A DNA stretch of 64,000 bases from Microbacterium sp. Clip185. Lineage in GTDB: Bacteria > Actinomycetota > Actinomycetes > Actinomycetales > Microbacteriaceae. The number at the start of each line of letters is the position of its first letter. Within the stretch, counting starts at the first letter, position 1. The notes under the pieces are model-generated. The model was not told the DNA's origin. It did no database searches and was given only the letters and a program-made list of their open reading frames with translations. Positions 1,594 through 39,403 of the stretch are shown piece by piece. The position numbers and the translations under genes were made by a program. The stretch covers positions 558,001 through 622,000 of the forward strand of contig NZ_CP117996.1 in assembly GCF_028743715.1 (NCBI RefSeq), read 5' to 3'.

Positions 1594-1911
1594 TCAGGCG
1601 ATCGTCACCGCGGTGCCGTAGGCGCAGACCTCCACGCCACCGGTGTCGCCGTAGTCGTTCGTCTCGAACCGGAACGCGACGACCGCATTCGCGCCCTTCT
1701 GCTGCGCCTCCGCGGCGAGGCGTGACAGGGCCTCGGTGCGGGTCTCCTGCAGCAGCTCGGTGATGCCCTTCAACTCGCCGCCGGCGAGAGCCTTGAAAGA
1801 CGCGCCGATGTTCGAGCCGATATGGCGCGAGCGCACGGTGAGGCCGAAGACCTCGCCGTGCACCTCGGTGATCGTGCGGCCGGGGATGTCGTTCGTCGTG
1901 ACGATGATCAT
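1594..1911 (-). CDS. YbjQ/UPF0145 family heavy-metal-binding-domain protein
   Basis: A 105-residue protein, the usual length of the YbjQ (UPF0145) family. It starts MIIVTTNDIPGRTITEVHGEV and has the conserved SRHIGSNIGASFKALAGGEL and GANAVVAFRFETND blocks. Members form pentameric rings of unknown role; metal binding is only proposed. The ATG at 1911 is preceded at 7 bases by TAGGGT, which looks like a -10 box of a leaderless transcript. Upstream frame extension to 2028 lacks family similarity and is rejected. Confidence 0.88.
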   Translation of the reverse strand: MIIVTTNDIPGRTITEVHGEVFGLTVRSRHIGSNIGASFKALAGGELKGITELLQETRTEALSRLAAEAQQKGANAVVAFRFETNDYGDTGGVEVCAYGTAVTIA

Positions 1912-2118
1912 GCGCCACACCCTAGGGCAGGCCCTCCCGCATCCGACAGGGTCCTCGGCGCGCCGCGCGGCGGGGTGAGCAGGGTGTGAGGATCCGCCGG
2001 ACGGGCGTTCGGATTCCGTTAGGACCACGGGATCCGGCCCACGCAGGGCGTTCGATCGACGAGTGCCCCGAGTGGGGCGCCCGCGCCGACCGCGCGGCGT
2101 GTTCTCTGGAGAGTCCCC

Positions 2119-2259
2119 GTGCTCGATCTCGTCTACGTTCTCGCGACGCTCGCGCTGTTCGCGCTCGTCGCCCTCGTGCTGAAGGGGGTCGACGCACTGC
2201 AGGCGGGCGACCGTGCGTCCACCCGCCCGGCCGCCACCGCCCGGAGCGAGCGCTCATGA
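2119..2259 (+). CDS. 46-residue membrane peptide at the head of the kdp operon
   Basis: GTG start after GGAGAG (spacing 5). The peptide begins [20 protein letters not shown], one transmembrane helix, and ends in a polar tail rich in Arg/Ala. Its TGA overlaps the kdpF ATG in an ATGA junction, so the two are probably translationally coupled. Small membrane peptides at this position occur in other actinobacterial kdp operons, but no role is established. It may assist assembly or stability of the Kdp complex (inference). Confidence 0.7.
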
Positions 2260-2345
2260 TCGTCATCTCCCTCGTGGCCGCGGCCCTCGCCGTCGCCGCC
2301 GTCGTCTACCTCGTGATCGCGCTCGTGCGCCCGGAGAAGTTCTGA
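2256..2345 (+). CDS. kdpF: KdpF, small subunit of the potassium-transporting ATPase
   Basis: 29 residues: a single transmembrane helix ([20 protein letters not shown]) ending in RPEKF, the hallmark of KdpF, which stabilises the KdpABC complex in the membrane. The stop codon overlaps the kdpA start by one base (TGATG). Position directly before kdpA is the standard one. Confidence 0.93.
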
Positions 2346-4027
2346 TGGATGCGGAGTCGATCACCTTCGGCATCCTCCAGATCGCGACCCTGCTGCTGGC
2401 TCTGGGGCTCGCCTATCGGCCGCTCGGGGACCTCATCGCCTTCGTCTTCACCTCGCCCCGCCACGCGCGCATCGAACGCGGCGTCTACCGTGTGATCGGT
2501 GTCGACGCGGACGCGGAGCAGAGCTGGCAGGCCTACGCGCGCGGCGTGCTGATCTTCTCCGCGGCCGGCGTGCTGCTGGTCTACCTCCTGCAGCGCACGC
2601 AGCAGTTCCTCCCGTACGCACTGGGCCTTCCCGCGGTGCCGGAGGGGCTCGCTTTCAACACCGCCGTCTCCTTCGTGACCAACACGAACTGGCAGTCCTA
2701 CTCGCCCGAAGCCACCCTCGGCTACACCGTGCAGTTCGCGGGACTGGCCGTGCAGAACTTCCTCTCCGCCGCCGTCGGGCTCGCGGTCGCCATCGCGCTC
2801 GTGCGCGGCTTCGCGCGGCGCGGCTCCGCAACGATCGGGAACTTCTGGGTCGATCTCGTTCGCGGTGTCGGCCGCATCCTCCTTCCCCTCGCGGTCGTCG
2901 CAGCGATCGTGCTCATCATCGGCGGCGTCGTGCAGAACGTCGCGGGGTTCACCCCCGTCGACACGATCAGCGGCGCGGTGCAGAACCTGCCCGGCGGTCC
3001 CGTCGCCTCCCAGGAAGCGATCAAGGAGCTCGGCACCAACGGCGGCGGCTTCTTCAACGCCAACTCCGCGCATCCGTTCGAGAACCCGACACCGTGGACC
3101 AATCTCTTCGAGATCTTCTTGATGCTCGTGATCCCCGTGTCGCTGCCCCGCGCCTTCGGTCGGATGGTGGGCGACAACCGTCAGGGCTACGCGATCCTCG
3201 CGGTGATGGGGACGCTCTTCGCGGTGTCGCTGTCGCTGCTGACCTGGTTCGAGGTACAGGGCTTCGGCAGCGCGCCGCAGCTGGCCGGCGGTGCGATGGA
3301 GGGCAAGGAGACCCGGTTCGGCATCTGGGCCTCCACCCTGTTCGCCACCTCCACGACCACCACCTCCACCGGTGCCGTCAACTCGATGCACGACTCGTAC
3401 ACGGCCGGCGGCGGAGCCATGACCATGATCAACATGATGCTCGGCGAGGTCGCGCCAGGCGGTGTCGGATCGGGTCTGTACGGGATGCTGATCCTCGCCG
3501 TCATCGCGGTGTTCATCGGCGGACTGCTGGTGGGTCGCACCCCCGAATACCTCGGCAAGAAGATCGGTCCCAGCGAGATCAAGCTCGCGAGCCTGTACAT
3601 CCTCGTGACCCCCGTGCTCGTGCTCGCCGGAACCGCTCTGAGCTTCGCGGTGCCGGGCGTGCGCGACGACGTCGAGTCCACCTCGATCCTCAACCCCGGA
3701 CTGCACGGCTTCAGCGAGGTGCTCTACGCGTTCACCTCCGCGGCCAACAACAACGGTTCGGCGTTCGCCGGGCTCACCGCGAACACCCCGTGGCTGAACA
3801 CCGCGCTCGGCATCGTGATGCTGCTCGGGCGCTTCATCCCGATCGTGCTGGTGCTGGCGCTCGCGGGCTCGCTCGCCGCGCAGGAGCGCATCCCCGGCAC
3901 CTCCGGCACCCTCCCGACTCACCGGCCGCAGTTCGTCGGCCTCCTCCTGGTCGTGAGCGTGCTCATCACCGCACTCACCTATTTCCCCGTTCTCACGCTG
4001 GGTCCCCTGGCGGAAGGGCTTCTGTGA
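2345..4027 (+). CDS. kdpA: KdpA, potassium-binding and translocating subunit of Kdp ATPase
   Basis: 560 residues, typical for KdpA, a ten-helix channel-like subunit of the high-affinity ATP-driven K+ importer. The four selectivity loops are visible: [46 protein letters not shown] and [14 protein letters not shown]. The ATG at 2345 overlaps the kdpF stop; a longer upstream extension of the frame reads through kdpF and is not plausible. It overlaps kdpB by four bases (GTGA), so subunits are made from one transcript. Confidence 0.98.
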
Positions 4028-35414: not shown

Positions 35415-35434
35415 CGCGGCTGTCGGCCGTCAGC
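35410..35434. terminator. Small convergent-gene hairpin
   Basis: GCTGACG (35410-35416) and CGTCAGC (35428-35434) form seven pairs with an 11-base loop. The arms contain the stop codons of the converging genes. Confidence 0.4.
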
Positions 35435-37001
35435 CCAGCCCGAGGCGCCGGACGGCTGCCTCCGCCTCCTTGCGCGAGGAGACGCCCAGCTTGCGATAGG
35501 CGCTGCTGAGCTGCGTCTTGACCGTGTTGGGGCTCACGAACAGCCGTTCGGCGATCTGGGCGGTGGTGGCGCCGGTCGCCAGCTCCCGCAACACCGCGCG
35601 CTCCCTGGCGGTCAGCTGCGGCGCGGATGCGGCATCGGGGAACTGGGCCCGCTCGTGCACGAGGGTGACGAGATCGTCGTCCTGCAACGCCGCCGCCGCG
35701 GTCAGCTGGACGAAGTCGCTGTGGCCGACCGTCGCCATGCTGCCGGCGAGGCCGTACTCCCGGGCGAGGCGCAGGGCGTGGCGCATCGCGCCGGCGGCGT
35801 TCTCGGGCTCCTCGAGACGCAGGCAGGCGACGGCGGCCGCCATCAGAGCCTCGGTCAGCAGTCGCGGACGCGACCCCGCCTCCTCCACCAGAGCCGTGAG
35901 CGTGGCGAGGGCGCGGCGATGCTGCCCGGATGCGGACTCCACGCGCGCCCTGGCGAGCGTGAGGTGACCCGGCTCCGCGGGCCACAGCTCGAACCCGTCG
36001 AGGCGCGAGCCGCGGGCGAGCGCATCCTCCGCACGTTCGAGCTCGGCTGTCGCACGTGTCAGGTCCCCCCGACGCAGCAGCAGGTCGATACGCGCGCTCG
36101 CCAGCAGCTCTCCGGCCAGGCCCGCCTCGCTCAGAGGGTCCGGGTGCGCAGCCGCGGCGACATCGATCTCGATGAGCAGGGCCCCCGCATCCTCCGCCGG
36201 CGTGATCCGTGCCTTCGCGTGCAGCACGTGGGCCCAGTACTCGCCGAGCGTTGCGGGATCGATCGCGGCGAGCGTGCGCCGGGCCGCGTCGTCCTGCATC
36301 CGGTCATGCTCCCGCAGCGCCTGGGCGACCCGGGCCGGCACTGCGTACTTCGCGGCGGCGCCCAGCGCATCCGGCGCGGCGATGCGCGACCAGTGGTCGG
36401 CGGCGGAACGGTGTCCGGCGAGCGCGTGGATGCCGGCGAGCGATGCCGATGCCGATGCGCGGATGAGGGCGTCCTCCATCAGCACGGCGAGGTCGTACGC
36501 ATCCTGGTACTCGGTGACCGCCTGCTCGATCTGCCCGGCGAACTCTCGCACTCGCGCCCATTGGGCGTGCAGGTGCGGGAGTGCCGACTGGGCCGCTTCC
36601 ACGGCCTCGGTCGAGGCCGCGTGGAGCGCGTCGCGACCTCGTTCTACGCGGGCGACGGCGGCCGCCACGTGCCCGGCGCTGCGCTCGGCTGCCGCGCGGC
36701 TCGTGTGCTCGACGAGCACGTCGAGCAGTGCCGTCGGCCGCTCGAAGGTGGAGTGTCGGTAGCGGTGCACGCTGCCCGTGCCCTCGGAGAGGTGTCGCAG
36801 ATAGGTGCGCGCGGCGAGGTAGCGCGGCTGCGCGGCGAGCGTGGACGCCGGGAGGCGTTCCAGAGCGCGGAGGAGCGCGGGGGCGTCGGTGAGGATCAGT
36901 GCCGACCAGTGCTCGGCGATCAGCGCGGTCACGCGATCCCAGTCCTCGTCGTCGACGGCGCTGTTCAGGGCGCGTTGCGGTTCACGGGTGACATCGCTCA
37001 C
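35430..37001 (-). CDS. LuxR-type transcriptional regulator with long helical-repeat domain
   Basis: 523 residues from GTG 37001 (GAGAGG 11 bases upstream). Residues about 20-440 are TPR-like helical repeats, as in the C-terminal half of MalT/LAL regulators; no nucleotide-binding domain is present. The last 60 residues are a LuxR helix-turn-helix: LTARERAVLRELATGATTAQ then FVSPNTVKTQLSSAYRKLGV. A bipartite element 55-91 bases upstream is shared with the 38719 gene. The open frame continues to 38414 but that extension is the shadow of the sigma-factor gene. Confidence 0.88.
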   Translation of the reverse strand: MSDVTREPQRALNSAVDDEDWDRVTALIAEHWSALILTDAPALLRALERLPASTLAAQPRYLAARTYLRHLSEGTGSVHRYRHSTFERPTALLDVLVEHTSRAAAERSAGHVAAAVARVERGRDALHAASTEAVEAAQSALPHLHAQWARVREFAGQIEQAVTEYQDAYDLAVLMEDALIRASASASLAGIHALAGHRSAADHWSRIAAPDALGAAAKYAVPARVAQALREHDRMQDDAARRTLAAIDPATLGEYWAHVLHAKARITPAEDAGALLIEIDVAAAAHPDPLSEAGLAGELLASARIDLLLRRGDLTRATAELERAEDALARGSRLDGFELWPAEPGHLTLARARVESASGQHRRALATLTALVEEAGSRPRLLTEALMAAAVACLRLEEPENAAGAMRHALRLAREYGLAGSMATVGHSDFVQLTAAAALQDDDLVTLVHERAQFPDAASAPQLTARERAVLRELATGATTAQIAERLFVSPNTVKTQLSSAYRKLGVSSRKEAEAAVRRLGLG

Positions 37002-37055
37002 GATCTGCGTGGCCTCTCGGGTGTGCGGTGACGCGGAGATCGCGTTTCCTACGAG

Positions 37056-37092
37056 GAGAGATGCGTCGCACGCGGTTTCGTGACGCGGTTTC
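37056..37092 (-). promoter_or_regulatory. Bipartite element, copy 1 (upstream of the LuxR gene)
   Basis: On the minus strand: GAAACCGCGTCACG, 14 bases, GCATCTCTC. Both blocks and the exact spacing recur at 39122-39158. Within the spacer a second AAACCGCGT follows directly. GAAAC resembles the -35 of ECF sigma promoters. It lies 55 bases before the LuxR start. Confidence 0.6.
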
Positions 37093-37105
37093 CGAGATTC
37101 GTCGA

Positions 37106-38662
37106 TCAGAACGGGAAGCAGAACCATTCCCAGGGCCACGGGCATCCCGGCTCCGTGGGCTCCGTGGGCCCGCTCGGGCTCGGCGAGGGACTGGGGCTCG
37201 GCGACTCGCTCGGGGTCGGGCTCGGTGTCGGCGTCGGGCTCGGGGTTGGGCTCGGTGTCGGCGAGGGCGACGGGCTCAGGGAGGGGGCAGGTGTCGCTGA
37301 CGGCGAGGGCGACGGGCTCGGGGAGGGGGCCGGTGTCGGTGACGGCGAGGGAGTCGCGGAAGGTGAGGGCGTCGCGGAGGGCGATGGCGAAGGGCTGGGA
37401 GACGGCGCGGATGTCGGTGACGGCGATGCGCTGGGCGTCGGTGCGGGCGTGGGACGCGGTGTCGGCGCCGGTGTGGCCGCGGGGATGACGGGGGCGGGGC
37501 CTTCGGCCGCGGGGGAGCTCTCGGGGCGGGGTGTGCGCGGGGTGCGCGGCGTGGGCTGGGGTTCGGGCGCCAGCGTTGCGGTCGGGGTCACGGACGCCTC
37601 GGGTGAGGAGATCGCCGCGTCCGCAGCGGGGGCGGCGGGCGCTTCCGCGGCCGCCGGTGCGACGACCGAGGAGTCGGACGGGGCGAGGAGTCCACCCAGG
37701 CCCCCGGTCGCAGCCCACGTCACCCCGCCTGCGACCACCGCGACCGCCGACACCGCGACGACCGTCGCGAGCTGCCAAGAGCTCCGGCCGGCTCCGCGCG
37801 GGCGGAGCAGGCCCAGCAGTCCACCGCTCGCGTTCGAGGCGGCCTGTCCGCTGCCCGCGGCCATGGCCACGGCTGCGGCCTGCGCGCCGCCGGACTGCGC
37901 CCACGCCGCGTAACTGGCTGTCGCCGACACGCCGACGACGAGCGGGATGAGCACGAGGGCGAGCCGCGACGCGACGTCGCGCGCCTCGCTCCAGGCCAGC
38001 GCGCATCCGGTGCAGGTCTCCAGATGGGCATCGACGCGACGCGCGTCGCGCCGGGACAGGGCGCCACGGGTGTGCGTGCCTAGCAGCGGAAGGGTCTCGT
38101 GGCAGTCGGGGCCGCTCGGGTTGCGCAGCTGCGCCGTGACCCACGCGTCGCGGAATCCGCGGCGGGCTCGCACCACGAGGGCGGAGGCGGCGTTGGGCGC
38201 GAGTCCCATCAGCGGCGCGAACTGTCGCGGCTTCAGGCCGTCGACCTCGCTGTACCAGAGCGCCTCCTGCCAGCGGGTCGGCAGGCCCCGGAACACATCC
38301 GCGGTCGTGCCGCGCTCCAGGGCCGACAGAGCGGCATGCTCTGCGTCGACGGATGCGGCCGCCGCCGCATTCTCGAGGTCGGTCGTGTCGGCCTTGGTCT
38401 GTCGCGCACCCCATTCGGCCGCGACGTTACGCACCGACGTCAGCAGATACGGGCGGAAGCCCATGACCGGTCCTTGGCCGCGTCCGATCGCGGCGAGGAT
38501 GCGGGTGAAGGCCTCGGCCACCACATCGTCGGGATCGAGCGAGGTGAAGGCGCGCGCGACCGCGTGCGCGGCGGCGGAGTGGCGCAGCCACAGTTCGCCG
38601 TAGGCACGGGAGTCGCTCGCGCGGGCGCGCTCGACGAGATCGTCGTCAGACAGCTCGGGCAT
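37106..38662 (-). CDS. ECF-type sigma factor fused to zinc-finger anti-sigma domain, membrane helices and Ser/Pro-rich tail
   Basis: 518 residues from ATG 38662 (ATG 38701 would add 13). Order: sigma region 2 (about 8-60, AYGELWLRHSAAAHAVARAF, DPDDVVAEAFTRIL); region 4 (about 120-175, LPTRWQEALWYSEVDGLKPR); a ZAS-type anti-sigma zinc finger with Cys187-His188 and His213-x3-Cys217-x2-Cys220; two transmembrane helices (about 234-255 and 296-318); then about 160 residues of Ser/Pro/Thr/Ala repeats, ending in an aromatic cap (CPWPWEWFCFPF). The fusion suggests self-inhibition released by a surface signal (inference). Confidence 0.9.
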   Translation of the reverse strand: MPELSDDDLVERARASDSRAYGELWLRHSAAAHAVARAFTSLDPDDVVAEAFTRILAAIGRGQGPVMGFRPYLLTSVRNVAAEWGARQTKADTTDLENAAAAASVDAEHAALSALERGTTADVFRGLPTRWQEALWYSEVDGLKPRQFAPLMGLAPNAASALVVRARRGFRDAWVTAQLRNPSGPDCHETLPLLGTHTRGALSRRDARRVDAHLETCTGCALAWSEARDVASRLALVLIPLVVGVSATASYAAWAQSGGAQAAAVAMAAGSGQAASNASGGLLGLLRPRGAGRSSWQLATVVAVSAVAVVAGGVTWAATGGLGGLLAPSDSSVVAPAAAEAPAAPAADAAISSPEASVTPTATLAPEPQPTPRTPRTPRPESSPAAEGPAPVIPAATPAPTPRPTPAPTPSASPSPTSAPSPSPSPSPSATPSPSATPSPSPTPAPSPSPSPSPSATPAPSLSPSPSPTPSPTPSPTPTPSPTPSESPSPSPSPSPSGPTEPTEPGCPWPWEWFCFPF

Positions 38663-38718
38663 GGGCTTTCGGGTCTTCGGGAATTCTGAGAAAGCTCTCA
38701 TCTTCGGGTCCGTCCAGA

Positions 38719-39117
38719 CTAGGGCGACGGCGCGGTCAAGCGGGAGAGATCCCAGGGATCCTGTGCAGAATCGCCGATCGACTCGAAGTTCCGGAGATGG
38801 CGGACGAGGTCGGTGAAGGTGTCATCCGCGAATGCGCGGCAGTCCAGGACCCGCGGCGCACCCCCGGTGACGTTCGCGACGATGCAACGGCGCAGGCGCC
38901 GACCCGCGACCGCATCCGTCGGGCGGGGAACCGAGAAGTGCACCAGCCCTCTCCGCCAGATCGCGGTGTCGGCGCCGTGATAGAGGTGCACGAGCGGGCC
39001 TCGGATGACGATGCGTTCGGGCCGGATGGCGCCACGCGAACCGGCCAGTCGCCGCGGCAGCCAGCGTCGCCAGGCGCGAAGGACCGGGACGGCGAACTCG
39101 GTGTGTGCGGGATGCAT
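38719..39117 (-). CDS. Hypothetical protein (132 residues)
   Basis: MHPAHTEFAVPVLRAWRRWL start, basic N-terminal region, then a beta-rich part (RIVIRGPLVHLYHG, LVHFSVPRP, RRLRRCIVANVTGGAPRVLD) and a C-terminal DPWDLSRL. No membrane helix, no known domain. The bipartite element ends four bases before the ATG, so transcripts would have almost no leader. It lies next to the sigma/anti-sigma fusion and is a candidate target of it. Confidence 0.6.
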   Translation of the reverse strand: MHPAHTEFAVPVLRAWRRWLPRRLAGSRGAIRPERIVIRGPLVHLYHGADTAIWRRGLVHFSVPRPTDAVAGRRLRRCIVANVTGGAPRVLDCRAFADDTFTDLVRHLRNFESIGDSAQDPWDLSRLTAPSP

Positions 39118-39121
39118 ACCT

Positions 39122-39158
39122 GAGAGATGCGATTGCTCGCAGAACGTGACGCGGTTTC
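39122..39158 (-). promoter_or_regulatory. Bipartite element, copy 2 (upstream of the 38719 gene)
   Basis: On the minus strand GAAACCGCGTCACG, 14 unrelated bases, GCATCTCTC; both blocks identical to the copy at 37056-37092. It ends directly before AGGT-ATG of the 132-residue gene. Confidence 0.6.
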
Positions 39159-39220: not shown

Positions 39221-39379
39221 ATGGTCGGAATCGCTGTTCTCCTCGTCATCATCGGCATCGTCCTGCTTCTTCTGGGCGTCTTCGTCGAAGCGGTGAAGTT
39301 CCTGCTCTGGATCGGGCTGATCATCCTCGTCATCGGGATCATCGCGGCCCTCATGCGATTCATCCGACGACAGGCGTAG
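39221..39379 (+). CDS. Small two-helix membrane protein (52 residues)
   Basis: MVGIAVLLVIIGIVLLLLGV forms one helix, FLLWIGLIILVIGIIAALMR the second, with a short EAVK loop and a basic end. Composition like small DUF-type phage-shock or stress peptides, but no family is certain. CAGACT six bases before the ATG may be a leaderless -10 box. Confidence 0.65.
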   Translation: MVGIAVLLVIIGIVLLLLGVFVEAVKFLLWIGLIILVIGIIAALMRFIRRQA

Positions 39380-39403
39380 TCCAACCGGCTCGCGCGTTCG
39401 TCC

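Follow-up and report, generated by a model that had tools for sequence, protein, structure and literature searches.

Proteolysis is expected to release the sigma of fused sigma/anti-sigma chains, according to passages of a review (PMC8999054). The closest described systems are the ECF48, ECF52 and ECF53 groups of Actinobacteria (for example SCO4117 of Streptomyces coelicolor, ECF52), in which a sigma domain, a zinc finger, transmembrane segments and a Pro-rich extension lie in one chain, and for which positive autoregulation has been proposed in passages of two publications (PMC5826349, PMC8999054). The passages of the ECF52 study describe the promoter signature of this group as still to be established, and the motif proposed there for SCO4117, CSGYN-17-SRHA, is theoretical according to its authors (PMC5826349). 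A second point of comparison is ECF41, which has a C-terminal extension and a very small local regulon and for which passages of PMC3426412 give the promoter TGTCACA-n16-CGTC, located before a neighbouring target gene and often before the sigma gene.

Here we analyzed a 64,000-nucleotide stretch of the Microbacterium sp. Clip185 genome (the window) that encodes a sigma factor of this general kind. Like ECF52 proteins, the window sigma has a zinc finger within the chain, hydrophobic segments after it and a proline-rich extension. The carbohydrate-binding domain present at the C-terminus of ECF52 proteins found no match in it (Pfam, E<=0.1), and because this domain is missing we call the protein ECF52-like and do not file it in ECF52, a naming that compares features and does not apply the ECF group models. 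The motif proposed for SCO4117 fits neither of the two sites described below when compared by eye, and the ECF52 passages mention neither a LuxR gene nor a leaderless small gene. The likeness to ECF41, as far as the passages on that group go, lies in the small local regulon and in a promoter that is close, but not identical, to the core found here (CGTCACG-N15-CRTC). Unlike ECF41, the extension of the window sigma consists of a zinc finger and membrane segments, with no Pfam match to the SnoaL-like domain, and its neighbours are not carboxymuconolactone decarboxylases, oxidoreductases or epimerases. A full-text literature search, conducted largely outside subscription papers, found neither the module nor the motif in print.

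Organization of the locus

The three genes lie on the minus strand in the order small gene, sigma gene, LuxR-type gene (Table 1), and the flanking genes match the original prediction, which had described a 132-codon gene and a LuxR-type gene on either side of an ECF-type sigma. The assignment of the sigma itself also stands, as its protein only just passed the ECF superfamily model TIGR02937 (43.0 bits against a cut-off of 42.9) and carries a fused zf-HC2 domain at residues 187-221 (Pfam, 31.0 bits, cut-off 22.2); the Pfam models Sigma70_r2 (21.8 bits, cut-off 24) and Sigma70_r4_2 (15.4 bits, cut-off 25.7) both stayed below cut-off. The chain, which has 531 residues from the ATG at 38701 or 518 from the ATG at 38662, runs from the sigma domain through the zinc finger and two hydrophobic segments to a Pro/Ser/Thr-rich tail. 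A simple hydropathy scan placed the peaks after the zinc finger at residues 227-245 and 298-316 (a putative topology), and the tail reads as rich in Ala as well as in Pro, Ser and Thr. The end of the small gene and the ATG at 38701 are 17 bases apart, so the small gene and the sigma gene probably share site B. The GTG given in Table 1 is the most likely start of the LuxR-type gene.

Table 1. Features of the sigma locus, in window coordinates
Feature	Position	Strand	Basis
Site B, predicted promoter of the small gene-sigma operon	39122..39158	-	predicted, by comparison
Site B predicted -35, CGCGTCACG, followed by N15	39153-39145	-	
Site B predicted -10, CATCTC	39129-39124	-	
Site B predicted +1, A of ATG	39117	-	
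Small gene, first of operon, 132 residues/codons	38719..39117	-	reading frame and homologues
ECF-type sigma fused to zinc-finger anti-sigma domain	37106..38701	-	domain models
Site A, predicted promoter of the LuxR-type gene	37056..37092	-	predicted, by comparison
Site A predicted -35, CGCGTCACG, followed by N15	37087-37079	-	
Site A predicted -10, CATCTC	37063-37058	-	
Site A predicted +1, leader of ~50 bases	near 37051	-	
LuxR-type regulator, 523 residues from GTG 37001	35430..37001	-	C-terminal GerE DNA-binding domain

The repeated element

A search of the window recovered the bipartite element GAAACCGCGTCACG-N14-GCATCTCTC at sites A and B with 0 mismatches, bearing out what had been claimed for it: both copies with their coordinates, the minus strand, 23 identical positions at fixed spacing and 14-base spacers that differ. 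At <=3 mismatches the window contains these 2 matches against 0.01 expected (100 shuffles). The original prediction had proposed a genome scan, and in the single contig of 3,305,635 bases searched as the Clip185 genome we found exactly these two copies at the same threshold and none with the reversed control, so the element does not have many unrelated occurrences there. Across 198 Microbacterium genomes, 5 have a match at <=3 mismatches (reversed control 0), with 2 copies each in Clip185 and G135 and 1 each in G041, G106 and G177. The G177 match, which has 3 mismatches and lies on a different contig from that genome's sigma homologue, may have arisen by chance.

There was no sign of a larger regulon in the Clip185 genome, as the looser core at <=2 mismatches gave 75 matches versus 77 for the reversed control. 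Eight one-mismatch matches in this genome (L046-L053) all lie inside long stop-free frames; this is a weak test, since the two real sites do likewise. A short hydrophobic reading frame on the plus strand (39223-39381) starts divergently from site B in a common intergenic region.

A conserved core in close sigma orthologues

Close relatives of the sigma gene comprise a 94% identical orthologue in G135 and seven orthologues with 65-74% identity (L220-L226), six of them from Microbacterium and L220 from a metagenome bin called Actinomycetales. Seven other Microbacterium loci with a close orthologue of sigma have the element at the small gene-sigma operon, and we aligned these (G135 and L221-L226) with the window; L220 was omitted because its best candidate differs at 3 positions. 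The aligned copies share CGCGTCAYG-N15-CRTCTC at <=1 mismatch (e.g., TGTCTC in L223 and CATCTG in L224/L225). Only CGCGTCAYG of the left block is kept by the relatives, which narrows the left block as originally described. The five bases 5' of the core vary (gaaac, gaaac, gcaat, caaac, and gattc-like or tttt-like sequences). GAAAC had been likened to an ECF -35 box; we rejected this, as it varies among relatives and sits at -41..-37, too far upstream.

In all eight aligned loci a start codon lies 6-7 bases below the -10 of the site B copy, the distance being 6 bases in the window, G135, L221, L223 and L226, and 7 bases in L222 and, with GTG, in L224 and L225. If the message starts at the start codon, the two boxes occupy -36..-28 and -12..-7, which is normal ECF geometry. 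Because the core spacing and the start-codon distance recur in relatives, we read both elements as promoters. In eight whole genomes (Clip185, G135 and the six containing L221-L226) the exact core CGCGTCAYG-N15-CRTCTS has 13 matches, 12 of them at the module, versus 1 for the reversed control. The remaining match, in G399, lies 6 bases above the ATG of a 69-residue frame, and G396 is without an exact core, having two copies with 1 mismatch each. Two further features were seen around the module: a long frame for a repeat-bearing surface protein ends just upstream of it in L224 (1-3417) and L225 (3-3410), and in L226 the LuxR-type gene and the small gene are separated by a DUF222 protein gene (1729-3126), with similar frames in L222 and L223.

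The small protein family

The original prediction had called the 132-residue gene an orphan, a description that no longer fits, as homologues with 32-38% identity precede the sigma gene in five further loci (L220, L221, L222, L223 and L226). At E<=1e-3 the gene is found in the window and G135 only among the 198 Microbacterium genomes, and a scan of genome contigs with the 132-residue protein confirmed no homologue. Because the 32-38% identical relatives later surfaced in loci of the same collection, we attribute the failure of the contig scan to missed sensitivity. An alignment of six members shows invariant residues in IRP, W-R and RHLRN, and the family motifs are IRPxxIxI and RHLRNFE(A/S)I. 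In L224 and L225 frames of 171 and 173 codons occupy the place of the small gene and contain RHVRLF, a resemblance seen by eye. None of the six members had a Pfam match, and a PDB search of the family gave only a chance-level match (E 0.34). Our guess is that the small protein acts as a co-regulator of sigma activity.

The LuxR-type gene

A LuxR-type HTH is found in 6 of the 7 module loci (G135, L222, L223, L224, L225 and L226), and each of these genes has an element of its own; the seventh locus, L221, stops at a contig edge. The gene lies downstream of sigma in G135, L224 and L225, and on the far side of sigma on the opposite strand in L222, L223 and L226. From the -10 down to its start codon the distance is 5 bases in L224/L225 and about 56 bases in the window. 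These proteins share the DNA-binding end, and full-length likeness is confined to the G135 protein (76%). The DNA-binding end was found in none of 28 loci of distant sigma homologues with 1.5 kb flanks and in neither of two with 12-14 kb. Given that 6 of the 7 module loci have it and that it was not found in these 28 and 2 distant loci, the LuxR-type regulator looks like an output of the switch. Small gene, sigma gene, LuxR-type gene and both elements recur together in other Microbacterium, as expected of the three-gene module originally proposed.

The core at distant sigma homologues

We extended the comparison to 108 loci of Microbacterium homologues that are ~42-51% identical to the window sigma (28 of the first 30, excluding the window and G135, and 80 added). 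With a spacing of 15 and <=1 mismatch, the core precedes sigma in 61 of the 108 and is present divergently in 84, the reversed controls giving 0 and 0. Other spacings from 8 to 21 gave 0-2 matches, except for divergent spacing 20 with 26. At <=2 mismatches 60 loci have the core in both directions, 4 in the forward direction only, 32 divergently only and 12 in neither. The association with sigma extends to whole genomes: the exact genus form CGCGTNATG-N15-CGTCTC occurs in 81 of the 198 genus genomes (reversed control in 10), and it is found in 79 of the 144 with a sigma homologue (E<=1e-15) versus 2 of the 54 without (G069, G123), leaving 65 sigma-bearing genomes without the exact form. The Fisher p value for this co-occurrence, 2e-12, is too small, since the genomes are related.

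Of 31 named loci beyond the close group, 8 contain the core at <=1 mismatch, in every case no more than ~360 bases upstream of sigma, and the other 23 are without it at this threshold. Loci with the core include those of Compostimonas, Glaciibacter, Humibacter, Sediminihabitans and Nakamurella; the fused sigma family itself is represented, at E<=1e-20, in 45 of the 85 genera of the bacterial family that were sampled.

In L014-L039 a SigA-like promoter (TGGnCA, 17 bases, GAGAAT) lies just above the forward core. This core is frequently an inverted repeat, AGACGCGTGA...TCACGCGTCT, and in these relatives it could thus also act as a 5' hairpin. We do not prefer a pure RNA hairpin, as the same core and spacing occur divergently without the inverted repeat.

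Possible other targets and a putative divergent RNA in relatives

Of 21 distal exact sites elsewhere in relatives, those in L157, L159, L160 and L162 and the second one in L173 have a start codon 6-7 bases below, and several (e.g., L158, L161, L163 and L170) are without a clear gene. L159, L160 and L162 encode a near-leaderless family of ~144-156 residues that shares ALDLSIDEE or a close variant of this string, and which L157 resembles by eye; the L159 protein, the only member tested, had no Pfam match. Hand-picked distal sites precede, besides this family, small hydrophobic proteins in L154, L155, L156, L164 and L173 and large secreted proteins in L166 (SdrD_B and SpaA), L167 (PKD and Laminin_G_3) and L173 (DUF11). 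These putative targets point to the cell surface.

Directly below the divergent copy, hairpins with G-rich (GGGG-type) loops are present in L031, L026, L128, L106 and other genus loci. An initial consensus fold computed from 84 sequences gave no structure. For a fold of 18 pairs in 48 sequences, derived from the same 48 sequences on which it was tested and which were chosen by loop pattern, pairing is seen in 91.1% of cells versus 81.9% in shuffles (maximum 83.9%), with 73 two-sided changes versus 22.9 (maximum 36 in 500 shuffles). A copy of the RNA in G159 (L172, site at 600) lies away from sigma and has the same promoter core, which favours the G-rich strand as the putative transcript; the folding-energy comparison of the strands gave a mean difference of -9.13 versus -9.55 in shuffles and thus favours neither strand. 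We rejected the C-rich strand as the Actinobacterial 6C RNA, for which there was no Rfam match. At gathering level Rfam reported only two ZTP riboswitches in 13 sources, and at E<=1 in 9 sources the G-rich/C-rich element was without a match. A ZMP/ZTP riboswitch (RF01750) lies at 2008-2089 of L040 and at 10278-10359 of L041, an unrelated part of these loci. We regard the divergent RNA as a candidate sigma-dependent small RNA.

Proposed mechanism and alternatives

We consider it highly probable, on comparative grounds, that both elements are promoters read by the membrane-tethered ECF sigma encoded between them. The fused zinc-finger anti-sigma region and the two hydrophobic segments would hold the sigma inactive at the membrane until a signal at the surface releases it, probably through proteolysis. 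The released sigma would then recognize the -35 CGCGTCAYG and the -10 CRTCTC, 15 bases apart. Starting at site B, it would produce a leaderless message for the small protein and then for the sigma itself, giving positive feedback, and starting at site A it would produce the LuxR-type regulator, which would relay the signal further. What we observe is the sequences with their exact spacing, how they are conserved and how they are linked to the sigma gene; we infer transcription from both sites, sigma as the reader, the release step and every downstream effect.

The link to sigma is one of position and co-occurrence, and a different sigma, or another regulator that follows the same gene with the same distribution, would fit it as well. 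We judge such a reader improbable in view of the motif's occurrence in 79 of 144 sigma-bearing versus 2 of 54 other genomes, and of a core that adjoins the sigma gene even in other genera.

The original prediction had named either the sigma or the LuxR protein as driving both sites. An operator through which the LuxR-type protein regulates itself and the operon would agree with the copies that accompany LuxR-type genes in 6 of 7 module loci, and with GAAACCGCGT, which is present twice inside site A (37079-37092 and 37065-37078, 14 bases apart) and largely so in G135 too. Against this, the 28 and 2 distant loci described above have the core at sigma homologues without a LuxR match, a LuxR orthologue (E<=1e-20) occurs in 7 of the 198 genus genomes, 5 of them having only a remote one, versus 81 for the exact genus form, and the -10/-35 geometry relative to the leaderless starts is that of a promoter. 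We therefore think a LuxR operator very unlikely. Because the core is found at many distant sigma genes that are without LuxR where tested, sigma is the likely reader; this part of the earlier proposal is supported by the comparison, and the LuxR part is not.

A coincidental match, or a recent duplication that serves no function, has nothing for it beyond the copy number of two and is a negligible possibility given the 0.01 matches expected in the window, the differing spacers and the independent recurrence of both copies in other species, where spacers and flanks differ.

For the family, with the sigma as the preferred reader, a tentative and rather doubtful reading is that the fused-sigma lineage recognizes CGCGTnAYG-N15-CRTCTC and in many Microbacterium drives the GGGG-loop RNA, divergently from its own gene and outside any Rfam family, together with near-leaderless small proteins and surface proteins, and that the lineage of the window may have rewired this RNA output to a transcription factor, the conserved small protein and the LuxR regulator replacing the RNA. 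The element provides a precise candidate recognition sequence for a related and poorly understood fused-sigma family, and it connects this sigma with a LuxR regulator and with a small protein that is itself conserved.
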